DNA of 64,000 bases from Weissella koreensis KACC 15510 (GTDB taxonomy: Bacteria; Bacillota; Bacilli; Lactobacillales; Lactobacillaceae). Position numbers and translations under genes: made by a program. Shown here one piece after another: positions 11,673 to 60,070 of the stretch (positions are counted from its first letter, which is position 1; every line of letters begins with the position of its first letter). The stretch is from positions 682,001-746,000 of the forward strand of contig NC_015759.1 in NCBI RefSeq assembly GCF_000219805.1. Reading direction: 5' to 3'. Under the pieces are notes generated by a model. The model saw only the letters and a list, made by a program, of their open reading frames with translations. It ran no database searches and was not told the origin of the DNA.

Positions 11673-12452
11673 TTATTTTTTGTTACTTACTTGAGATCCG
11701 CCCATGAATCCACCAACAATTCCTGTCCGCTTACGCAAGTAGCGGAATCCAGCAAATGCTGCTACAGCAACAATCAGATAAATCCAACCTGGCAAAACAG
11801 GATTGATCACCTTTGGAAGTACTGAAGCAAGCATGTAGATTAAGAACCACAAAGCAAAGGCTAGGATGGCTGAAATAACACGCAAAATTCTTCCTAGATC
11901 ACTACGCGCCATAATCTTAGTAATCAAGGCAAAGAGTAATCCTCCGCAAATTGAAGTTAACGCCAAAGCCAAAATTCCAGCAGCGCCAGCATTTACTGAA
12001 GCATCTTTTTGGAATAATAGTGTAATTCCAAACATCGCTGAGAATAACATTAAGAATGTTAGCATATTGTCAAAAGCTAAATCCCAATACCCAAAATCAC
12101 TATAAACGGTTCCTTGATTTTGTTGATTGTGGGCTTCAACTTCCATTCCTAAAGCGGCAGCAGGTGTACCATAAATTTGTTTCGCCGTCTTTCCTACTTT
12201 TTGGCCTTCTAACAAATCACTTTGCATTTTTTGAATCAATGGTAAATATTGTTTATCATTTTCAACTAACTCAATAGCTTGATATACGAATTTTTGATTT
12301 CTATTACTCAAACCAGATTCTGCTAAATCAGCATGCGTTGGCATTTCAGTTACTTCCGTTTCAGTCGCTTCCATTCCGGTTGCTTCCATTTCGGTTACCT
12401 CCGTTTCGCTAACTTCACTTACTGGCTCTTGTGCCTTCATTTCTTCCGTCAT
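11673..12452 (-). CDS. DUF1129 family membrane protein with N-terminal Glu/Thr repeats
   Basis: This 259-residue protein has a low-complexity acidic start (residues about 8-40, repeated E-V/A-T-E-T/M), a soluble DUF1129 region (about 45-115), and four membrane helices (about 130-245). The family is common in lactobacilli next to ychF and parB and has no established function. The acidic start is encoded by a short 15-bp tandem repeat. The gene follows ychF by 26 bp on the same strand and is probably cotranscribed. Confidence 0.78.
   Translation of the reverse strand: MTEEMKAQEPVSEVSETEVTEMEATGMEATETEVTEMPTHADLAESGLSNRNQKFVYQAIELVENDKQYLPLIQKMQSDLLEGQKVGKTAKQIYGTPAAALGMEVEAHNQQNQGTVYSDFGYWDLAFDNMLTFLMLFSAMFGITLLFQKDASVNAGAAGILALALTSICGGLLFALITKIMARSDLGRILRVISAILAFALWFLIYMLASVLPKVINPVLPGWIYLIVAVAAFAGFRYLRKRTGIVGGFMGGSQVSNKK
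12349..12408 (-). repeat. 15-bp tandem repeat inside the DUF1129 gene
   Basis: Four consecutive 15-bp units of the type GTTRCYTCCRTTTCG (12349, 12364, 12379, 12394), plus a diverged fifth, encode the E(V/A)TE(T/M) repeats. The unit is five codons, so slippage would change length but keep the frame. Confidence 0.75.
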
Positions 12453-12478
12453 TAAACCATCTCCTCCGTAAATTCATT

Positions 12479-13579
12479 TTAAACGTTAAACAAGAACTCC
12501 ATAATGTCACCATCGGAAACCACATACTCTTTTCCTTCAGATCGTAACCGGCCGGCCTCTTTAACTGCCTTTTCATTACCATATTGATCCAAATCTTCAT
12601 AGCTCATTGTCTCAGCACGAATGAATCCACGTTGGAAGTCAGAGTGAATCACTCCGGCCGTTTCTGGCGCTTTAGCTCCAGATTTGAAAGTCCAAGCACG
12701 TACTTCTTTTACTCCGGCCGTAAAGAATGTGCGCAAATTCAACAAGTCATATGCTGCCCGAATCAACACATTCAGGCCAGGTTCTTCGACCCCTGACATT
12801 TCCAAAAATTCAGCTTGATCTTCTTTTGGCATCTCTGCAATTTCTTCTTCAGCCCGCGCTGATAAACCAACAACCTGTGCTCCTTCTTGAGCAGCGTATT
12901 CTTGGATCATTTGGAAATACTTTGAAGCCTCAGGATCACTCATATCATCTTCACTAACATTTGCTACATATAATGTTGGCTTTGTTGTTAGTAAGAATAA
13001 GTTTCGTACAATTTTTTCTTGTTCTTCCGTAAATTCTGCTAATCGTGCTGGCTTTCCAGCATCTAATAAAGGCTTAATCTTATCTAACACTTCAAATTCA
13101 GCCTTAGCTTCCTTGTCTCCACCTTTAGCTGCTCTAGAAACTCGATCATAACGTTTTTCAATTGATTCCAAATCAGATAAAACTAATTCAGTATTAATAG
13201 TTTCAATATCATCAATCGGATCAACCGTTCCATTGACATGCACAATATTATCATCATCAAAAGCGCGAACAACGTGCACAATCGCATTTACTTGACGAAT
13301 ATTTTCCAAAAATTTATTTCCTAATCCCTCACCTTGTGAAGCACCTTTAACAATTCCCGCAATATCCGTGAATTCAAAGGTAGTTGGAATAATTTTATTA
13401 CTTTTCACAATTTCAGCAATTCTAGCTAAACGAGCATCAGGAACTTCAACCATCCCCACATTTGGCTCAATCGTAGCAAAAGGATAGTTCGCCATTTCAG
13501 CTCCAGCCTTTGTGATTGCATTAAATAAAGTTGATTTCCCAACGTTTGGAAGTCCAACAATTCCAGCTGTTAATGCCAT
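12479..13579 (-). CDS. ychF: Ribosome-binding ATPase YchF (Obg-family)
   Basis: This 366-residue P-loop protein has G1 GLPNVGKST at residues 9-17, the switch II region DIAGIVKGAS near 72 and the NVSE motif near 205. NVSE replaces the usual guanine-specifying NKxD and explains ATP preference in YchF/OLA1. A coiled-coil insertion and a C-terminal TGS domain complete the family architecture at the usual length. YchF binds the ribosome and affects translation and oxidative-stress resistance in other bacteria. It sits in the conserved rsmG–parAB–DUF951–ychF block, all on the minus strand. Confidence 0.95.
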   Translation of the reverse strand: MALTAGIVGLPNVGKSTLFNAITKAGAEMANYPFATIEPNVGMVEVPDARLARIAEIVKSNKIIPTTFEFTDIAGIVKGASQGEGLGNKFLENIRQVNAIVHVVRAFDDDNIVHVNGTVDPIDDIETINTELVLSDLESIEKRYDRVSRAAKGGDKEAKAEFEVLDKIKPLLDAGKPARLAEFTEEQEKIVRNLFLLTTKPTLYVANVSEDDMSDPEASKYFQMIQEYAAQEGAQVVGLSARAEEEIAEMPKEDQAEFLEMSGVEEPGLNVLIRAAYDLLNLRTFFTAGVKEVRAWTFKSGAKAPETAGVIHSDFQRGFIRAETMSYEDLDQYGNEKAVKEAGRLRSEGKEYVVSDGDIMEFLFNV

Positions 13580-13609
13580 ATTTAATTTCCTTCTTTTCTA
13601 TTAATTTTA

Positions 13610-13792
13610 TTAGTTAGCTTTTTCCAAAACCTTTTTAAAGCGACGATCAAAATCATGTCGTGATAACATTACCACTCGTTCACATCCTTGACACTTAATT
13701 TTCATATCTGCACCAATGCGAATAATCGCCCAGCGATTAGTTCCGCAAGCATGTGGTTTTTTCATTTCAATAATATCCGAAAGTTCATACAT
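13610..13792 (-). CDS. DUF951 family protein
   Basis: This 60-residue protein is a typical DUF951 member: MYELSDIIEMKKPHACG, then a CxxC pair (KCQGCERVV), suggesting a small zinc-ribbon or OB-like fold with Cys ligands at C16, C34 and C37. An in-frame GTG lies three codons upstream, but the ATG at 13792 follows GAGGTG at good spacing. The gene is 17 bp after parB and 30 bp before ychF, its conserved position. Its function is not known. Confidence 0.85.
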   Translation of the reverse strand: MYELSDIIEMKKPHACGTNRWAIIRIGADMKIKCQGCERVVMLSRHDFDRRFKKVLEKAN

Positions 13793-13809
13793 ATGTATCA
13801 CCTCGTTTT

Positions 13810-14718
13810 TTAATCGTTGAGATCTAGTCCTAATGCGTTAATAATACGATTCAAATCTTGATCTGATCCATAATTAATTTCAATTTTACCAGCACCACGT
13901 TGATTATGCTTGATCGCAATTTTGGTAGCTAATTTATCCGACAAAGCTTTTTCCGTTTCCTTCAACTCTGCTGAAATTTGTGGTGTAACTTTTGAAACCA
14001 CTTTATTTTCATTCATTTCATTAACTAAACGTTCCACTTGCCGAACCGTCAAACGCTCTTGCATTACTCGTTTAGCTAAATTCAAAATTTGGCGCTTATT
14101 ATGCAACCCCAATAAAGTTCTTCCTTGCCCCATTGATAATTCACCTGTTTGGATCCAATCTTGAACCTCTTGCGGTAAAGTCAATAAACGAACGGTATTT
14201 GCGACAACGGAACGTGCCTTTCCCAAGCGTTTAGCAACTTGGACTTGCGTAAGATGCAAAACATCCATCATCTGCTTATAAGCCAAAGCTTCTTCAATTG
14301 GTGACAAGTTTTCTCGCTGTAAATTCTCCAAAACAGCCGCCTGCATCATCGTTGCATCATCATATGCACGAACGACTGCTGGAATCGTTTCATTCCCAGC
14401 TAGTTGAGTTGCACGCCAACGTCGTTCACCAGCTAAAATTTCATATTTATCTTTAGATTCTTTAGCCACGCGAACAATAATTGGTTGTAAAATACCATTT
14501 TCTTTAATTGAGTTAGCCAACTCACGTAAAGCGTTTTCATCAAAGCTATGGCGTGGTTGAAAAGGATTAGCAATAATAAAATTTACATTTAAATTTTCTA
14601 TAGCATCCCCTTTGTTTTCATCTACATCTACATCAATTCCTTGTTGCCCAAAGAGTGCATTTAATCCACCACTGACAATGTTATCGCCTAGAACGCTTTT
14701 TTTCTTAGATGTTGTCAT
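13810..14718 (-). CDS. parB: Chromosome-partitioning protein ParB (Spo0J)
   Basis: This 302-residue ParB has the CTP-binding ParB/Srx domain (about 45-135, with GERRWRA near 117) and the HTH KorB-like domain (about 150-215, VAKRLGKARSVVANTVRLL). A C-terminal dimerisation region follows. ParB loads at parS sites and recruits SMC near the origin. It overlaps parA by 14 nt. A near-perfect parS lies 1.6 kb away, upstream of rsmG. Only one ParB paralogue is present; the Noc gene often found next to rsmG in Bacilli is absent. Confidence 0.95.
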   Translation of the reverse strand: MTTSKKKSVLGDNIVSGGLNALFGQQGIDVDVDENKGDAIENLNVNFIIANPFQPRHSFDENALRELANSIKENGILQPIIVRVAKESKDKYEILAGERRWRATQLAGNETIPAVVRAYDDATMMQAAVLENLQRENLSPIEEALAYKQMMDVLHLTQVQVAKRLGKARSVVANTVRLLTLPQEVQDWIQTGELSMGQGRTLLGLHNKRQILNLAKRVMQERLTVRQVERLVNEMNENKVVSKVTPQISAELKETEKALSDKLATKIAIKHNQRGAGKIEINYGSDQDLNRIINALGLDLND

Positions 14719-45091: not shown

Positions 45092-45497
45092 CTGCGTCTT
45101 TTTCTGCTTTAATGGGATTATTCGCCCCTAAATCCAAATTCATTAAAGCTTGGGAACCCGCGCCAAACATTGGTTGCGGGTCTTTTTTATGTCCTACTTG
45201 ATCGTAATTTCAAAAGTTTATATTTTTTATATATTTAGGTGTCATGTATGACCTCATTTGATCATCACGTCTTTCAAAAAACGTCAAACACATTGGCAAT
45301 TATACGTTTTAGCTTTATTTAGATCCTTTATGATTATTTTTGAGTCCTTTTCAATCAGTCTTTCAGCCAATTGTCTCGAATTACCCGTTATTTCCCGACG
45401 TTCCCCGTTAAAAATCCCGCCAAAATAAAAAAACGGGATCCCTGAAGTCTTGATATTACTGACTTCGTTCTGGATTTCCCATTTTCCCGTTTATTTT
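45071..45497. repeat. Long direct repeat, copy A (starts in rlmH 3' end)
   Basis: About 420 bp from GGATCCCC in the last rlmH codons to CCCGTTTATTTT reappear at 54324-54740 with about 90% identity by eye. Both copies hold two hairpins. On the minus strand they hold reading-frame remnants such as DPQPMFGAGSQALMNLDLG and ERREITGNSRQLAERLIEK, probably the ends of unidentified mobile-element genes. This fills the gap 45092-45619 apart from 120 AT-rich bases. Confidence 0.85.
45154..45188 (+). terminator. Terminator of rlmH
   Basis: ACCCGC and GCGGGT arms, extended by CAA/TTG, are followed by CTTTTTT. The same hairpin occurs in repeat copy B. Confidence 0.7.
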
Positions 45498-48575: not shown

Positions 48576-48822
48576 AAATAGCTTCTCCTCATACTCATTA
48601 TATATTCCTAAAATGATAATTTGACTAGCAAATTATTTTTAACATACCTTATATAAAGGCATTTTATAACTAAATTATAAATATATTCATTTAAAAATGA
48701 AGCAAAATATATCCTAATCAGATTATATTAATATTTTAAAAGCCGCTCTATTAGTACCTATTTTTACTAATCAGTTTAGATTTATTTCGAAATATATAAT
48801 TATAATGATATGAGCTTTTTTA

Positions 48823-49150
48823 TCTCGAATTACCCGTTATTTCCCGACGTTCCCCGTTCAAAATCCCGCCAAAACAAAAAAACGGGCACGATGAAGCCTT
48901 TTTATACCTGGCTTCGTTGGCAGTTTCCCGTTTTCCCGTTTATTTTACCGATAATATATAGATATTATTTGACTATTAGATTGATCCTGATTTTAGCTGA
49001 GTTCATTTGTTTTACAATTCGTTCATATAGTCCAACGGACTCTAATGTCTCTAGTTGCCAGTTCAATCCAAAACCACGCACAAATCGAGATAATGGATGT
49101 GCAGGTTCTTTAGTATCCTGTGCTACCAATACTTTGATTTTATCGTTAGC
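48823..49150. repeat. Island repeat, copy C (hairpin block plus DUF1643 3' end)
   Basis: The block CCCGTTATTTCCCGACGTTC to about 48960 is shared with copies A, B and D. From 48960 to 49150, the 3' end of the DUF1643 gene, it is shared only with copy D at 58375-58681. Its hairpin (GAAGCC/GGCTTC core, outer CGGG/CCCG stem, T tract on the minus strand) probably terminates the DUF1643 operon. It accounts for most of the gap 48576-48964. Confidence 0.8.
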
Positions 49151-52455: not shown

Positions 52456-52675
52456 CCATCAATCCAAATATAGATCCAAATACACCATCATATTATTTAG
52501 GAACTCCTTACCCTTCACCCTGCGTCTTTTTATATTTATACATAGGACTTCTTAGTACAGCTTGAATACAAATTCTCCACCAAAAAAGGGCGAACCCTTG
52601 AGTTCGTCCTTTTTATCTGCTTCTTTCAATTCGTCTACCAACTCGATCAATCATTTGGCTACATTAAATGATTAT
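52456..52675. repeat. Direct repeat E, copy 1
   Basis: About 215 bp recur at 59857-60070 with around 88% identity. The repeat contains a hairpin terminator (AAAAAGGGCGAAC / GTTCGTCCTTTTT, 52582-52614). On the minus strand it also encodes a coding remnant ending GSPFFGGEFVFKLY. Confidence 0.8.
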
Positions 52676-54323: not shown

Positions 54324-54740
54324 GGATCCCCATAACTGCGTCTTTTTCTGCTTTAATGGGATTATTCGTCCCTAAATCCAGATTTATTAAAGCTTGGGAA
54401 CCCGCGTCAAACATTGGTTGCGGGTCTTTTTTATGTCCTACTTGATCGTAATTTCAAAATTTTATATTTTTTATATATTTAGGTACCATGTATGACCTCA
54501 TTTGATCATCATGTCTTTCAAAAAGCGTCAAACCCATTGGTACTTATACGTTTTGGCTTTATTTACGTTCTTTATGATTAGTTTTGAGTCCCTTTCAATC
54601 AGTCTTTCAGCCAATTGTCTCGAATTCCCCGTTATTTCCCGACGTTCCCCGTTCAAAATCCCGCCAAAAAAAAAAACAGGATCCCTGAAGTCTTGATATT
54701 ACTGACTTCGTTCTGGATTTCCCGTTTTCCCGTTTATTTT
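54324..54740. repeat. Long direct repeat, copy B (with rlmH 3'-end remnant)
   Basis: This copy matches 45071-45497. The left edge keeps GGATCCCC and ATAA of the rlmH 3' end with two small deletions, and about 20 bp before it also resemble rlmH. It therefore looks like the duplicated target end of an insertion at rlmH. The copy fills the gap between the HigB gene and the redox cluster, apart from 54156-54323, where I see nothing specific. Confidence 0.85.
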
Positions 54741-54762
54741 ACCGATAATATATGAATATTTT

Positions 54763-54888
54763 TCAATTAGTTTTTGAAGCATTATCTTTTGTATCTTTTT
54801 CCTTATGATCAGATATTAAGCAACCATCAGGTCCACAAACACCTGTTTCATTGTCTGTACCAATTATATCAAAATTATTATAACTCAT
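54763..54888 (-). CDS. 41-residue cysteine peptide with CGPDGC motif
   Basis: A 41-codon frame starts MSYNNFDIIGTDNETGVCG and continues PDGCL to a Lys/Asp-rich tail. Its ATG overlaps the TGA of the FrnE/DsbA-like gene (ATGA), so translation is coupled. The only cysteines, C18 and C23, bracket GPDG and could form a disulfide or metal/persulfide site. As the last gene of a thioredoxin operon it may be a substrate or carrier of the redox proteins. I know no characterised family. Confidence 0.65.
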   Translation of the reverse strand: MSYNNFDIIGTDNETGVCGPDGCLISDHKEKDTKDNASKTN

Positions 54889-55538
54889 AATGAATTCTCC
54901 TCTAATTGAACTTGTTTAAGGGCCTTAACAAAAACATCATATGGTTGAGCACCACTAATACCATATTTATTATTAATTACAAAAAATGGTGCCGCATGAA
55001 TTCCTGATTGTTGAGCTTCAATTTCATCAGCTATTACATCTTTATGATATTTATCTGAATTCAAAACATCTAATATATCTTTTTCATCAAGTCCCGCTAT
55101 GATAGAAGCATCAAATAAAATTTTATGATCAGCTATTGATAATCCATCGCTAAAGTAAGTTTTATAAAAACTACTAATAACTCTTTCAGTTAATTCTGGG
55201 TCATGTTTACTTTCTGCTAATTTAATTATTCGATGGGCATCCACCGTATTAGTTGGAACAACACTATTGATATCCATTGACAATCCATCACCATGTGCCA
55301 TTGATTCAATCTGTTCCATTTGCGCCCTTGCTTGCGGTTCAAGGTCTCTATTACCATGTGTAAAATGATTAATATATCCTTCATTTGTTTCTTTGGGAGA
55401 TGTTGGATCTAATTCAAAAGATTTGAATTCTAATTGAGTTTTATCGTAAATTCCGATTTCCTTCATTGCTCTCTTCATACGATTTGATCCAATATAGCAA
55501 AATGGGCAAGCAATGTCTGACCAATATTTAATTTCCAT
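54885..55538 (-). CDS. DsbA-family FrnE-like oxidoreductase
   Basis: This 217-residue cytoplasmic thioredoxin-fold protein has the active site CPFC at residues 11-14 (SDIACPFCYIG). It has the helical insertion typical of FrnE and a cis-Pro region HAAPFFVINNKYGISGAQ near 180. FrnE-like proteins act in disulfide or oxidative-stress metabolism. It follows trxB by 14 bp and is coupled to the small Cys peptide gene. Confidence 0.88.
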   Translation of the reverse strand: MEIKYWSDIACPFCYIGSNRMKRAMKEIGIYDKTQLEFKSFELDPTSPKETNEGYINHFTHGNRDLEPQARAQMEQIESMAHGDGLSMDINSVVPTNTVDAHRIIKLAESKHDPELTERVISSFYKTYFSDGLSIADHKILFDASIIAGLDEKDILDVLNSDKYHKDVIADEIEAQQSGIHAAPFFVINNKYGISGAQPYDVFVKALKQVQLEENSL

Positions 55539-55552
55539 AATAAATTCTCCGG

Positions 55553-56497
55553 CTATTTAGTAGCTGCAAACTCATGTTTAAATTCTTCAATATACTCAAA
55601 CGCATTTTGCCCAGCAATACCACCATCACCAACTGCTGTTGTGATTTGGCGTAATTTCTTCTTACGAACATCACCAACTGCAAAAATTCCAGGAATTGAA
55701 GTTTCCATTTCAGAGTTTGTTAAAATCCAACCTGAATCGTCAGTGATATCAAGGCCTTGAAACATACCCGTATTAGGTGTGTTTCCGACATATATGAATA
55801 CACCTGAAGTATTAACTACTTTATCTTCACCCGTTTCAATATCGAAGGTCTTAACTCCTGTAACATGATTTCCGTCACCAATAATTTCAGTAACACTAGT
55901 GTTCCAAGTGAAATCCATTTTATCATTTGTAAAAGCACGCTCTTGAATGATTTTTTGTGCACGTAATTGCTTTCTACGATGAATAACATTAACGTTTTCA
56001 GTAATATTTGCTAAATACAGTCCCTCAGAAACAGCAGAGTCTCCACCACCAATTACGGTTACATCTTGATTTTTGAAGAAAGCCCCATCACAAACTGCAC
56101 AGTATGAAACACCTCTGCCTGAATATTTATCTTCACCTTCAACATCTAATTTACGATTAGTGGAACCAGTTGCAATAATCACTACTTTAGAATCAATTAT
56201 ATCGTCATCAATTTGAATATGTTTAATATTATGGTTATCTACTGTAAGACTCTGAACATCGCCATAAACAAAATTTACACCTGCATTAGTTGCACTTTCG
56301 TACATTTTTTGACCAAGTTCAGGTCCTTTAATTGAACTAAATCCCGGATAATTTTCAATGTCGTCAGTATTGTTCATCTGCCCTCCATAGATTCCTCTAT
56401 CCAGCATCGCCACATTCAAATTAGCGCGGGCTGCATACATAGCAGCAGTCATTCCGCCAGGTCCTGCACCAATTACTACTACATCATATTTTTTCAT
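55553..56497 (-). CDS. trxB: Thioredoxin reductase
   Basis: This 314-residue flavoprotein has the FAD motif GAGPGGMTAAMYAARA (10-25), the redox pair CAVC at 133-136, the NADPH motif GGGDSAVSEGLYL (about 156) and the C-terminal FAVGDVRKKKLRQ block. It reduces thioredoxin with NADPH. It lies amid three thioredoxin-like genes in one operon, 14 bp after the WCPDC protein gene. A lactobacillus would normally also have a core trxB, so this is probably an accessory copy. Confidence 0.93.
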   Translation of the reverse strand: MKKYDVVVIGAGPGGMTAAMYAARANLNVAMLDRGIYGGQMNNTDDIENYPGFSSIKGPELGQKMYESATNAGVNFVYGDVQSLTVDNHNIKHIQIDDDIIDSKVVIIATGSTNRKLDVEGEDKYSGRGVSYCAVCDGAFFKNQDVTVIGGGDSAVSEGLYLANITENVNVIHRRKQLRAQKIIQERAFTNDKMDFTWNTSVTEIIGDGNHVTGVKTFDIETGEDKVVNTSGVFIYVGNTPNTGMFQGLDITDDSGWILTNSEMETSIPGIFAVGDVRKKKLRQITTAVGDGGIAGQNAFEYIEEFKHEFAATK

Positions 56498-56511
56498 GCT
56501 TTAAACTCCTA

Positions 56512-56835
56512 TTAATCGGCTATATCACTTAAAAAAGCCTCTACATCTGATTTTGATTTTCTGTCCTTGTTTGCTAAACGCCCAATCTCTGTCCCGTCTG
56601 AGTAAACAACAAAACTAGGAATCCCATAGACATTCATTTCTTGAGCTAAATCAATATTTTCATCACGATCTACTTGAATAAATTTATAATCTGAAAAATC
56701 AGATTCAATTTCTGGCAATTTAGGTTTAATAAAACTACAGTCGGGACACCATGTTGCCATAAAAACCAAAACATATTTTCCATCTTTTAATCTATTTTCC
56801 AATTGTGACTTATCTATTACTGGTAATTTTTCCAT
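56512..56835 (-). CDS. Thioredoxin-like protein, WCPDC active site
   Basis: This 107-residue thioredoxin-fold protein has WCPDC at residues 29-33 and the cis-Pro loop GIPSF near 73. WCPDC is unusual compared with the WCGPC of classical thioredoxin and is seen in Gram-positive thioredoxin-like proteins of uncertain partners. It lies between trxA-like and trxB genes with 11-14 bp gaps. It probably has a substrate range distinct from its two paralogues. Confidence 0.85.
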   Translation of the reverse strand: MEKLPVIDKSQLENRLKDGKYVLVFMATWCPDCSFIKPKLPEIESDFSDYKFIQVDRDENIDLAQEMNVYGIPSFVVYSDGTEIGRLANKDRKSKSDVEAFLSDIAD

Positions 56836-56846
56836 AAATATATCCT

Positions 56847-57161
56847 CTAATTTGTATACTGAGCTAAAATATTTTTTAGTTTATCTTTAGAATGCAATCC
56901 AACTAGTTCTTCAACCACTTTGCCATCTTTTTTAATAATTAAAGTTGGAATTGACATAATACCAAATTCGTTAGCCGTCTCAGGATTAGCGTCAACGTCC
57001 ATCTTTGTAACTTTGACATTATTTCCTATTTCTTTATCTAATTGCTCAACGATAGGGCTCTGCATTTTACATGGGGGACACCAATCTGCCCAAAAATCAG
57101 TTAAAGTAATACCGGTACTAGTTTCTTGCACAAAATCTTTATCATTTAAGTTTTTAATCAT
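56847..57161 (-). CDS. trxA: Thioredoxin, WCPPC active site
   Basis: This 104-residue protein has the standard thioredoxin length and fold: FWADWCPPCKM with C28 and C31, VDANPETANEFGIMSIPTL with cis-Pro, and a C-terminal amphipathic helix. WCPPC replaces WCGPC; extra Pro in the motif alters redox potential and is common in accessory thioredoxins. It is the second gene of the operon, 18 bp after the first. Confidence 0.88.
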   Translation of the reverse strand: MIKNLNDKDFVQETSTGITLTDFWADWCPPCKMQSPIVEQLDKEIGNNVKVTKMDVDANPETANEFGIMSIPTLIIKKDGKVVEELVGLHSKDKLKNILAQYTN

Positions 57162-57179
57162 TTTTTACTTCTTCCTTTG

Positions 57180-57476
57180 TTATAAATAATATCGAATCAA
57201 TATTTCCAATTTTTCTTTATCAATAAATTTAGGAACACGCTCGACAACTTCACCATCTTTCAACAAAAGAAGGCTAGGAGCAGATCGAATATCATATTCA
57301 TTAGCAAGCTTAGCGTTTTCTTCAGCGTTAATAAATTCTATATTCAATTCATTTTGATATTCTTCTTTAATTTTTTTAATAATTGGTCGTTGCGTATAAC
57401 ATTGAGCACACCAATCATTCTCAAAATACATTAACGTTAATAAAAATTCTTTGTCAGCTATACTACTGTACATCAT
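57180..57476 (-). CDS. Thioredoxin-like protein, WCAQC active site
   Basis: This 98-residue protein is the first gene of the redox operon. It has WCAQC at residues 22-26, a cis-Pro in RSAPSLLLL near 66, and the thioredoxin secondary-structure order. An AGAGG site precedes two adjacent ATG codons (57476, 57473), either of which may be used. WCAQC resembles sites of thioredoxin-like proteins in Gram-positive redox islands. Its promoter carries the operator shared with the ArsR–rhodanese gene. Confidence 0.82.
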   Translation of the reverse strand: MMYSSIADKEFLLTLMYFENDWCAQCYTQRPIIKKIKEEYQNELNIEFINAEENAKLANEYDIRSAPSLLLLKDGEVVERVPKFIDKEKLEILIRYYL

Positions 57477-57499
57477 GAACCCTCTTTCAGTTTTTAATC

Positions 57500-57519
57500 A
57501 TTCAATTGATTTATTGAAT
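57500..57519 (-). promoter_or_regulatory. ArsR–rhodanese operator at the thioredoxin operon
   Basis: ATTCAAT-N6-ATTGAAT lies 24 bp upstream of the first thioredoxin gene, downstream of a TTGACA -35 near 57550 and a TATTGT-like -10. The same inverted repeat and a 17-nt flank (TTTATTGAATAGTTTAA) occur in the regulator's own promoter. Confidence 0.75.
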
Positions 57520-57577
57520 AGTTTAACAATAACACTTTTTTTAAATGTGTCAAATGCAAATAATCCTTACTTAAAAT

Positions 57578-57615
57578 AAAAAAATTACGCATGTCTTTTA
57601 AGAACATACGTAATT
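57578..57615 (-). terminator. Terminator of the ArsR–rhodanese gene
   Basis: AATTACG-ATGT and ACAT-CGTAATT arms are followed on the minus strand by TTTTTTTATTTT. It separates the regulator from the thioredoxin operon. Confidence 0.8.
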
Positions 57616-57629
57616 CATTTAATCTAATT

Positions 57630-58280
57630 TTATTTAGCCAAACTTAACGCTCTCCACTCTTGATAACTACTATTTAAACTAAAAGCATCAAATCCTCTTT
57701 CATTCAAATCATGAGTTGCTTGATTAGATCTACCGCAAAGTCTTCCACGACAATATACAATAATTGTCTTATTTTTTGGTAACTTATCCAAATTTTCTTC
57801 CAATTTATCTAATGGGATATTAAGGGCACCTTCGGCATGTCCAGCTTCGTATTCATCAACTGGACGCACATCTAACAATAAACTATCTTCTTTATTTCTA
57901 AATGCTTGATCTAATGAAATGGTTTTTACACCCTCGGCGCTATCAGAAAGTTGTTCGATTGATTTCATTTCAGAAAGTTCATCTTCTCCAACACTAATTA
58001 ATAAGAGAATTAATTTACTTATTTTTTCCGAACTTATGCTATAAATAACCCGATTCCCATCTTTAGTATTTTTTACCAAACGGCTTTCTTTTAATACCTG
58101 TAAATGTCTTGATGTATTAGCAATACTCATACCTGTTTCTTTAGAAATAACTTCTACTGATTTAGATGACTGGGTTAAAAGATCTAAAATTTCTAATCGT
58201 TTGTCGCTAGCAAGACCCTTCCCTAATCGAGCCAATTCTTTATATAATTGATCTTTATATATTTGTATCGAATCATTCAT
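57630..58280 (-). CDS. ArsR-family regulator fused to a rhodanese domain
   Basis: This 216-residue protein joins an ArsR winged helix (residues about 15-95, ISKETGMSIANTSRHLQVLK) to a rhodanese domain (about 120-212). The catalytic loop YCRGRLCGRS contains C177 and C182, the only cysteines in the protein, so metal sensing by the ArsR part is unlikely. A persulfide or disulfide on C177/C182 is the probable signal. AGAGGTG precedes the ATG at 58280; the open frame upstream runs into repeat D. Matching operators support control of itself and the thioredoxin operon. Confidence 0.88.
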   Translation of the reverse strand: MNDSIQIYKDQLYKELARLGKGLASDKRLEILDLLTQSSKSVEVISKETGMSIANTSRHLQVLKESRLVKNTKDGNRVIYSISSEKISKLILLLISVGEDELSEMKSIEQLSDSAEGVKTISLDQAFRNKEDSLLLDVRPVDEYEAGHAEGALNIPLDKLEENLDKLPKNKTIIVYCRGRLCGRSNQATHDLNERGFDAFSLNSSYQEWRALSLAK

Positions 58281-58294
58281 TTTACACCTCTTGA

Positions 58295-58345
58295 ATTCAA
58301 TCCATTTATTGAATAGTTTAATAATGACATTTCTTATTGTCAATA
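58295..58345 (-). promoter_or_regulatory. Promoter and operator of the ArsR–rhodanese gene
   Basis: TTGACA (about 58338-58343) and TAAACT with a 17-bp spacer form the promoter. Directly after it lies ATTCAAT-N6-ATTGAAT (58295-58314), the same operator as at 57500-57519. Placement over the transcript start implies repression. Confidence 0.75.
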
Positions 58346-58374: not shown

Positions 58375-58681
58375 CCGTTATTTCCCGACATTCCCCGTTC
58401 AAAATCCCGCCAAAATAAAAAAGCGGGCACAATGAAGCCTTGTTATACCTAGCTTCATTGGCAGTTTCCCGTTTATTTTACCGATAATATATAGATATTA
58501 TTTTATTATAGATGGATCTTAATTTTAGCTGATTTCATTTATTTTACAATTCGTTCATATAGTACGACGGACTCTAACGTCTCTAGTTACCAATTCAACC
58601 CAAAACCACGCATAAATCGAAAAAACGGATGTGCTGGTTTCTTTAGTATCTTGTACCACTAATACTTTGATTTTATCGTTG
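58375..58681. repeat. Island repeat, copy D
   Basis: This matches copy C (48832-49148) over the hairpin block and the DUF1643 3' end, with small deletions. The hairpin arms AATGAAGC/GCTTCATT are kept although the primary sequence has changed. Confidence 0.8.
58503..58681 (-). pseudogene. Truncated DUF1643 pseudogene
   Basis: Translation begins NDKIKVLVVQDTKE, matching NDKIKVLVAQDTKE of the intact gene at 48.97-49.57 kb. A one-base insertion then breaks the frame, and the WQLETLE region has become W-stop. Only the last third of the gene is present. Confidence 0.8.
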
Positions 58682-58948: not shown

Positions 58949-59632
58949 TCATCTAGCATATTTTTCAAAATATTCTACATCTTTAATCAAGATCAATCTC
59001 ATTTTTTGTTCTATTAAGTTTTGACTGACCAATTTATTCATAATTCTAGTTACTGAACTCCTGCTTTTAATCCCACAAAAATCACCGATCGTTTGGTGTG
59101 TTATTTTATGATTAATTAATATTTCTCCATTAATATTATTTTTAACACCAAATAATTTAATACATCTATACAGAAATTCACCAACTTGATCAACCTTGCT
59201 ACTACCCATATATTCCATTCGTTCTACATTTGCATTTATTCTTTGTCGATAATACATTTTTACATACTGATTTAAAATTTCATCTTTATTAACGAGTTTC
59301 CAAAACGTAAGACGATTAACTCTATAAAAAGTGGCCGTATTGGAATCAACTTTAACATCATAAGGTTGGTTAACTAATCCTTCATCCTCTTCCCTAAAAA
59401 GTGTGACAATCCCTGGTTTATTCATGTAAGAAATATTGACATTTTCTCCATTCGTCCCTAAAAGGGACATGATAACAACACCCTCAATCAAAATATAGAC
59501 ATGTGACTCTAAATAGCTTTCCCTGGTTAAATACATCTTTTTTGATAGTTTTACTGTTATTTTGTCATCCAGTGTTAACTTTTCCACCTCACTTAAAAGG
59601 TGATTGACATAAATTGGTTTTATATCTGTCAT
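58949..59632 (-). CDS. Crp/Fnr-family transcriptional regulator
   Basis: This 227-residue regulator has a cNMP-binding-like domain (about 20-125) and a C-terminal Crp HTH (about 165-215, HQTIGDFCGIKSRSSVTRIM). No Fnr-type cysteine cluster is present. An upstream TTG would add eight residues; I prefer the ATG at 59632. It is an orphan, with a remarkable 22-bp palindrome about 150 bp upstream that it may bind. Possible targets are the neighbouring glycosyltransferase genes or the redox island. Confidence 0.83.
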   Translation of the reverse strand: MTDIKPIYVNHLLSEVEKLTLDDKITVKLSKKMYLTRESYLESHVYILIEGVVIMSLLGTNGENVNISYMNKPGIVTLFREEDEGLVNQPYDVKVDSNTATFYRVNRLTFWKLVNKDEILNQYVKMYYRQRINANVERMEYMGSSKVDQVGEFLYRCIKLFGVKNNINGEILINHKITHQTIGDFCGIKSRSSVTRIMNKLVSQNLIEQKMRLILIKDVEYFEKYAR

Positions 59633-59782
59633 CCTTACAACCAGCCTCCTCGACAATAATAAATATAAGATTAAATACGTTTTTTATCGTTATTTTTATG
59701 TCTATACGGGCCATATTATAATCCTGATATCGGTTACATTTATTTCTGTTTTCATCCATATAATATGCATAATTTGTATTTT

Positions 59783-59856: not shown

Positions 59857-60070
59857 CCATCAACTCAAATATAGATCCAAATCCACCATTATCTTATTTA
59901 GGAAGATCCTTACCCTGTATTTCTTTATATTTATACATAGGAATTATTAGTACAGATTGAATACAAATTCTCCACCAAAAAAGGGCGAACCCTTGAATTC
60001 GTCCTTTTTATCTACTTATTTCAATTCGTCTACCAGCTCGGTCAATCATTTGGCTACATCAAATGACTAT
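59857..60070. repeat. Direct repeat E, copy 2
   Basis: This matches 52456-52675. Its right edge ends exactly at the stop codon of the glycosyltransferase gene, marking a junction between island modules. Confidence 0.8.
59977..60009. terminator. Terminator within repeat E2, after the glycosyltransferase
   Basis: AAAAAGGGCGAAC and GAATTCGTCCTTTTT form a stem with A and T tracts on the two sides. It ends the glycosyltransferase transcript. Confidence 0.7.

Follow-up and report, generated by a model that had tools for sequence, protein, structure and literature searches.

An ArsR-rhodanese repressor and a thioredoxin-FrnE operon with a common predicted operator in Weissella koreensis: a candidate reactive-sulfur regulon of lactic acid bacteria

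Introduction

ArsR-rhodanese proteins are not without precedent, Rv0324 of Mycobacterium tuberculosis being one. The ArsR-family repressors known to sense persulfides place a pair of cysteines in the ArsR protein itself, C41 and C107 in SqrR (PMC9995734) and Cys50 and Cys116 in SoxR (PMC10451225), and an earlier note on the DNA studied here had stated that sensors of the BigR/SqrR type use cysteines in the HTH (helix-turn-helix) domain. That DNA is a stretch of 64,000 nucleotides from Weissella koreensis KACC 15510 (NC_015759.1, positions 682,001 to 746,000; the window), in which the segment 54763–58345 carries, on the minus strand throughout, the gene for an ArsR-rhodanese fusion and a separate six-gene thiol-repair operon that runs from 57476 down to 54763. 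The fusion resembles SqrR, BigR and SoxR in its ArsR fold, its repressor logic, the two-cysteine switch that we propose and its sulfur-handling targets, but those proteins have no fused domain and hold the pair in the ArsR protein, whereas here the pair lies in the fused rhodanese domain. A protein of this kind, LSA0217 of L. sakei 23K, was annotated in a 2011 listing as having an ArsR-type HTH domain and being a putative thiosulfate sulfurtransferase; the passage gives no function, operator or regulon (PMC3146418).

The operon invites comparison with the alt clusters for allicin and thiosulfinate tolerance of Pantoea, Pseudomonas and Burkholderia, which are likewise mobile thiol-repair sets with a DsbA/FrnE homologue and thioredoxins. 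These clusters are described as also carrying a glutathione reductase, with OsmC in addition in Pseudomonas, and the Pantoea cluster as being under the control of a cysteine-based TetR-family repressor, AltR (PMC7119367, PMC13178969, PMC12306174). The altC gene encodes a DsbA-family oxidoreductase (PMC8417944) and reportedly suffices for the alt phenotype in Pantoea (PMC12306174); in Pseudomonas, overexpression of a dsbA/frnE-like gene alone gave a clear gain in allicin resistance, ahpD being the strongest resistance gene, above dsbA (PMC7119367). The window locus likewise has an altC-type DsbA/FrnE protein, a thioredoxin and a disulfide reductase on mobile DNA, but its operon contains no TetR-type AltR, alkene reductase, carboxymuconolactone decarboxylase (AhpD-like) or SDR protein, and the Pantoea alt stretch has neither TrxB nor ArsR-rhodanese annotated and encodes a DsbA-family protein with a fused tail that is 28% identical.

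Two further systems bear on individual genes. In Staphylococcus aureus, the thioredoxin TrxP (active site WCPDC) reduces protein persulfides, as do TrxA and TrxQ in vitro, and TrxP and TrxQ stand with the rhodanese sulfurtransferase CstA (PMC6196236); a WCPDC thioredoxin beside rhodanese sulfur chemistry is thus common to both organisms, but in W. koreensis a single protein would be both sensor and rhodanese, with the WCPDC thioredoxin encoded in the putatively controlled operon. In Deinococcus radiodurans FrnE, an enzyme of the same type as that encoded in the window, the C-terminal CX4C tail reaches from one molecule into the active site of a second, with a Cys244-Cys22 disulfide seen, and supports thioredoxin reductase-linked activity, and some FrnE proteins are reported to lack the tail entirely (PMC8945050). 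Plasmid-borne thioredoxins have been noted in Leuconostoc, in passages that mention no regulon (PMC7829361, PMC13304100), and the main text of PMC12306174 contains no mention of Leuconostoc, Lactobacillus, lactic acid, ArsR or rhodanese. Among the titles and opening abstract lines of the papers listed on ArsR-rhodanese fusions, SqrR, allicin and lactic acid bacteria, and kimchi plasmids, we found no published account of the regulon. Its parts (ArsR, rhodanese, thioredoxin, FrnE) are known; the conserved arrangement is without description in the literature searched.

Results

The sequence evidence supports a genuine regulon in which the regulator shares one operator with itself and the thioredoxin operon (Table 1). 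The inverted repeat ATTCAAT-N6-ATTGAAT that the earlier note had placed in both promoters is present in both, and a search of the 1.44-Mb genome returned these two exact copies and no other. The exact dyads begin 0 (regulator) and 6 (operon) bases past the −10 boxes of promoter-like sites, where a bound repressor would be expected to block the transcription starts. Each of these two promoter-like sites has 10 of 12 consensus matches; they are among the four best of the region and the only ones with a perfect TTGACA. Because promoter-like sites by themselves are not above chance (14 found in the region against 20.2 expected, with 2 terminators against 1.3), it is the coincidence of dyad and promoter that counts. 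Similarly, only the exact or core dyad is informative, since the form allowing up to three mismatches occurs at the chance level within the window (25 found, 26.6 expected). The flank of 17 nucleotides previously described as shared is present and covers the −10 region, but the two copies are not identical, differing at 2 of 17 positions.

The part of the repeat conserved in relatives is the core ATTCAA-N8-TTGAAT, of which the genome holds four exact copies: the two described here, one at the trx promoter of the module's other copy, on contig C1, and one inside a reading frame at C2:55754 (L140). The last was rejected as a regulon member, since it lies within the coding sequence of an FNR/CRP-like gene, whose Crp-type HTH was borne out by a domain search. 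The arsR promoter on C1 carries the core with one mismatch. Genome-wide, core sites with up to one mismatch number 39, against 26 for the reversed control, and a broader regulon drawn from them was set aside, since most of these sites are probably chance. The regulon in this genome thus seems to consist of the window module and the C1 module. The two regulators are 59% identical and have the same operator half-sites, for which reason they may cross-regulate.

Conservation of the dyad was assessed at 56 fusion genes in 55 loci (the window, L033–L035, eight plasmid loci and L079–L121), a set that includes near-identical plasmid copies and counts one site twice, as L035 (Limosilactobacillus caccae) and L080. 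Allowing at most one mismatch, the core dyad lies near the start of 35 of the 56 genes and in the downstream intergenic region of 42; 34 have it on both sides and 43 on at least one. Outside those regions, 565,049 background positions gave 23 matches, a rate of 0.008 per 200 bases, and several of these matches themselves precede thiol genes. The downstream dyads mostly stand ahead of a thioredoxin, TrxB, FrnE or flavin reductase gene. Among fusions 56–67% identical to the window protein, 21 of 25 have the dyad at the start and 21 of 25 downstream; the corresponding figures are 9/18 and 14/18 at 47–55% identity and 4/12 and 6/12 at 34–46%. A Priestia plasmid stretch, whose fusion is 45% identical, carries five exact sites, two of them overlapping and one in front of trxA. 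This family-wide conservation backs the proposal that the regulator and the thioredoxin operon would be under a common operator.

A second dyad, ACTTACAAAAAGTAtGT, was observed between the −35 and −10 boxes of trx promoters at 12 of the 56 by a strict pattern (L033, L035, L037, L038, L080, L081, L085–L088, L090 and L113), with near variants in L034, L039 and L040 and a degenerate form in the window; it was not found at the regulator promoter. We take it to resemble HxlR-type sites, which suggests a second regulator.

The regulator belongs to the ArsR winged-helix family (HTH_5, 39.6 bits, cut-off 22; NF033788, 66.8 bits, cut-off 55), has a predicted imperfect inverted-repeat operator at its own promoter in the manner of ArsR/SmtB proteins, and carries a rhodanese domain (61 bits, cut-off 22.2) with an invariant catalytic cysteine, C177. 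It scores 35.1 bits against the BigR model, whose cut-off is 155. C177 and C182 are its only cysteines, just as the earlier note had it. Both were present in all 17 fusions aligned first, and the loop CRGxxC was found in 53 of 53 distinct fusions, 48 from the loci read and 5 from distant phyla or classes. Within these 53 there is no other conserved cysteine, no other column having more than four, and the two cysteines that BigR and SqrR have inside the ArsR domain have no conserved counterpart in the ArsR half. Given this architecture, any thiol switch would lie in the rhodanese loop, the sole place with conserved cysteines, which supports the earlier proposal that the loop would be the sensing site.

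Comparison with 29 non-fusion rhodanese segments, taken as BLAST alignments from order-level relatives and one Campylobacteraceae contig, further distinguishes the loop. None of the 29 has the second loop cysteine, two also lack the first, and 27 are one or two residues shorter at this point, so that the fusions depart from the usual short rhodanese loop. These data bear on the possibility that the fusion acts as an ordinary sulfurtransferase through its rhodanese half, with an HTH half that is constitutive or answers to something else, as conservation of the domain and of its catalytic cysteine would allow; we consider this very improbable, because the second cysteine sets the fusions apart from all 29 segments and no other conserved cysteine points to a thiol sensing site. 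A related question is whether C177 and C182 simply form a disulfide, without sulfur transfer, in a general sensor of disulfides or electrophiles such as diamide, quinone or hypochlorite. The operon is indeed a generic disulfide-reducing set, and the second dyad at some trx promoters would fit such a role, but the rhodanese domain is retained in fusions down to 33–38% identity, which suggests sulfur chemistry, and sulfur genes occur among several distant neighbors; we regard a general sensor as unlikely, if worth keeping in mind.

The earlier description of the operon was borne out by the reading frames and by Pfam and NCBIfam, as regards its three thioredoxin-fold proteins with different active sites, TrxB, FrnE/DsbA-like protein and 41-residue cysteine peptide, and a terminator-like hairpin sets the regulator gene apart as a separate unit. 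The operon's genes support the view of a reducing system. Homologues elsewhere in the genome, TrxB at C2:1098592 (60% identical) and TrxA at C2:842224 (51%), are presumably the housekeeping enzymes, and the operon's thioredoxin and TrxB are therefore an extra set. For the WCPDC thioredoxin, TrxP was not among the 60 PDB matches listed out of 228.

Table 1. Annotated features of the ArsR-rhodanese and thioredoxin module, in window coordinates
Feature	Position	Strand	Basis
Operator dyad at the regulator's own promoter, directly 3′ of the −10 box	58295..58314	-	ATTCAA-N8-TTGAAT core; predicted from sequence
Operator dyad at the operon promoter	57500..57519	-	Sequence only
Promoter-like site of the regulator: TTGACA, 17 nucleotides, TAAACT	58315..58343	-	Consensus match only
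Promoter-like site of the operon: TTGACA, 16 nucleotides, TATTGT	57526..57553	-	Consensus match only
ArsR-family winged-helix repressor with rhodanese domain, 216 residues, loop YCRGRLC	57630..58280	-	Pfam/NCBIfam HTH_5 and Rhodanese
Intrinsic terminator-like hairpin between regulator and operon	57582..57616	-	
Thioredoxin-fold protein, WCAQC	57180..57476	-	Pfam Thioredoxin
Thioredoxin, TrxA-like, WCPPC	56847..57161	-	TIGR01068, 110.3 bits, cut-off 96.8
Thioredoxin-like protein, WCPDC	56512..56835	-	Pfam Thioredoxin; S. aureus TrxP active-site motif, motif match only
Thioredoxin reductase TrxB	55553..56497	-	TRX_reduct, 356.4 bits, cut-off 343.45
DsbA-family oxidoreductase of the FrnE type, lacking a C-terminal CX4C tail; Cys11 and Cys14 only	54885..55538	-	DSBA, 113.1 bits
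41-residue peptide PEP41, CGPDGC; ATGA overlap with frnE, own Shine-Dalgarno-like sequence	54763..54888	-	

The FrnE-type protein has a DsbA-type domain with CPFC, in keeping with the CP(W/F)C motif of the group, and matches PDB entry 5cnw ("FrnE protein", E = 1e-27), which we take to be the Deinococcus enzyme. It has no fused C-terminal CX4C tail, and the same holds for all 37 FrnE reading frames listed for the family. PEP41 matches no Pfam or NCBIfam family, and the 21 distinct relatives retrieved by BLAST all contain CGPxGC, having been selected for likeness. Of 36 loci that have a close FrnE, 32 carry a CGPxGC peptide gene directly 3′ of it (exceptions L098, L117, L118 and L119); 30 of the 32 show a Shine-Dalgarno-like sequence by a permissive pattern, and the frame relative to FrnE varies (15, 13 and 4 cases); these two features together make the peptide a separate gene. 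Among 15 FrnE-like proteins from elsewhere (28–39% identical), CX4C is a fused C terminus in 12. The fused tail reads exactly CGPDGC in L136, and CGSDGC in the Pantoea alt cluster's DsbA-family protein. The 41-residue peptide has the look of a FrnE C-terminal CX4C tail that has become detached, a relationship that is new here. One of the three FrnE-like proteins without the fused motif comes from a Streptomyces plasmid, where its gene (L123, 338–1236) is followed by an overlapping gene for 65 residues with CIDGVC; here the tail has likely been split off a second time, independently.

Beyond what the earlier note described, the system proved to be mobile and widely distributed, with a second copy in the same genome. 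The fusion (E ≤ 1e-25) occurs in 42 of 397 sampled genomes, from 13 of 40 genera, of the family that we take to be the Lactobacillaceae. Plasmid carriers include Lactiplantibacillus, Leuconostoc, Pediococcus and Levilactobacillus among others, with many plasmids from kimchi and vegetable ferments. At 52 of the 55 loci there is also a match to thioredoxin, TrxB, FrnE or the flavin disulfide reductase of 443 residues found on C1 (exceptions L083, L101 and L107). The gene complement varies: of the operon genes, a Ligilactobacillus copy has only FrnE and the peptide; the Priestia copy adjoins a CsoR-type repressor (Pfam Trns_repr_metal), a sulfurtransferase, thioredoxins and TrxB; and the copies of L. 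plantarum and L. brevis have a MarR gene and two OsmC genes behind them. Two OsmC genes stand after the trx module at L037 and L038 (each 12396–13844, with MarR) and at L118 (138–1005), where two OsmC-like frames adjoin FrnE, a further likeness to the allicin-resistance islands of Pseudomonas.

The second W. koreensis copy (L033, 9907–14949) lies on contig C1, of 18,992 bp, whose replication protein shares 99.5% identity with the one encoded by a Leuconostoc lactis plasmid from kimchi. A scan of the genome contigs with the regulator gave two loci, one of which matches the rhodanese half only. The C1 copy has an extra gene for the 443-residue flavin enzyme, absent from the window copy, which matches the disulfide-reductase superfamily and reaches no specific NCBIfam cut-off among the matches listed. 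It also adjoins a CopY-type repressor (194 bits, cut-off 122) and a copper P-type ATPase (584 bits, cut-off 397). These neighbors, the CopY-like genes about 5.5 kb from copies L096 and L097, and membership of the ArsR family are what might be expected of a metal or metalloid sensor with As(III), Cd or Cu as ligands of its CX4C dithiol and with an operon that mends metal-caused thiol damage. The ArsR half, however, has no conserved cysteine, and the window operon includes no metal exporter. Five of the seven full-length distant fusions among the matches listed were examined, and four of the five adjoin sulfur-type genes: metallo-β-lactamase-fold hydrolases and MFS transporters, in some cases also YeeE/YedE, TauE/SafE or rhodaneses, and in one an arsenic-resistance gene as well. 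On balance a metal sensor is quite unlikely.

The origin of carrier plasmids was compiled from the 60 records listed of 121 with a close FrnE; after 7 without a usable source were dropped, 31 of 53 came from kimchi, pickle or fermented vegetable. For comparison, Lactobacillaceae plasmids found by their replication genes had a vegetable source in 5 of 17 cases (22 rows among 60 listed, less 4 without a source and 1 known carrier; Fisher p = 0.05), or in 6 of 24 with a second set (9 rows among 60 listed, less 2 without a source; p = 0.008). Sources were classified manually, the carriers are in part clonal, Korean kimchi is over-sampled, and other comparison plasmids are possibly carriers too.

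Several features of the surroundings were recorded. A repeat of about 140 to 170 nucleotides, 79–96% identical, occurs four times in the genome, all in the window (45356–45497, 48820–48969, 54600–54770 and 58375–58508); two copies directly flank the trx/ArsR module, and the repeats perhaps mark exchangeable cassettes. A direct repeat of 159 nucleotides (plus 48), about 90% identical, at 52456–52675 and 59857–60070 bounds a 7.4-kb block that contains a Gp49/HTH toxin-antitoxin-like pair, the trx module and a Crp/FNR-like regulator gene (58949–59656) that adjoins the ArsR-rhodanese gene.

Discussion

We propose, with a probability of roughly 0.6, that a self-regulated, thiol-switched repressor drives a dedicated disulfide and persulfide repair operon in lactic acid bacteria. 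From their position and conservation, the ATTCAA-N8-TTGAAT sites over the start of both transcripts would be bound by the ArsR half. Since the only conserved cysteines are in the rhodanese loop, the repressor probably turns the genes on under reactive-sulfur attack: persulfides, polysulfides or thiosulfinate-derived disulfides would modify C177, C182 would resolve the adduct, and the repressor would be released. TrxB would then pass electrons to the three thioredoxins and to FrnE, which, as the motif match and gene order suggest, may use a CX4C tail delivered in trans as a separate peptide. Action in trans is plausible because the Deinococcus tail reaches into the active site of another molecule, although the tail is fused there and a separate gene product here. 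The most likely purpose, and the least certain step, would be survival of lactic acid bacteria on sulfur-rich plant material, perhaps with garlic or cabbage as the source of reactive sulfur. The regulator and its regulon appear well supported. The earlier proposal of a sulfane-sulfur or disulfide-stress switch driving a reducing system is partly supported, as far as the common operator, the loop cysteines and the reducing genes are concerned, with sulfane sulfur, a disulfide, a thiosulfinate or a metal as candidate ligands.

Several observations weigh against this proposal. Binding, induction and the ligand are all proposed from sequence, and the locus count is inflated by the redundancy mentioned above. 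Thirteen of the 56 fusion genes have no nearby dyad (L043, L050, L083, L094, L095, L101, L107, L111 and L117–L121). In five of them an exact dyad lies farther off in the stretch (L043, L094, L101, L107 and L111): in L094 it stands ahead of trxA, the regulator being downstream of the operon, and in L043 ahead of trxA and elsewhere. The other eight have no exact dyad anywhere in the stretch. The Phaeobacter fusion, one of the distant ones, adjoins an MFS transporter, with no clear sulfur gene beside it. The likeness to TrxP is a motif match only, ahpD is absent from the window operon, and the ecological signal is weak and confounded.

On our best reading, the operon would function like the allicin-tolerance clusters. 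We speculate further, and hold it to be no better than a tentative possibility, that the system is a mobile regulon for tolerance of plant thiosulfinates in food lactic acid bacteria, assembled separately from the Gram-negative alt clusters, with a dithiol rhodanese-loop (CRGxxC) sensor and a split FrnE whose dithiol peptide of about 40 residues does the resolving work of the tail in trans and might also serve other clients as a gene-encoded small thiol.

If the proposed regulon is real in this form, thiol sensing in the ArsR family would have moved out of the DNA-binding protein and into a sulfur-transfer domain fused to it, whose conservation extends from Lactobacillaceae as far as Rhodococcus and Hymenobacter. 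The thioredoxin sets carried on plasmids of vegetable-ferment bacteria would be accounted for as well, and FrnE would be a naturally split enzyme, its redox tail replaced by a peptide of 40 residues.

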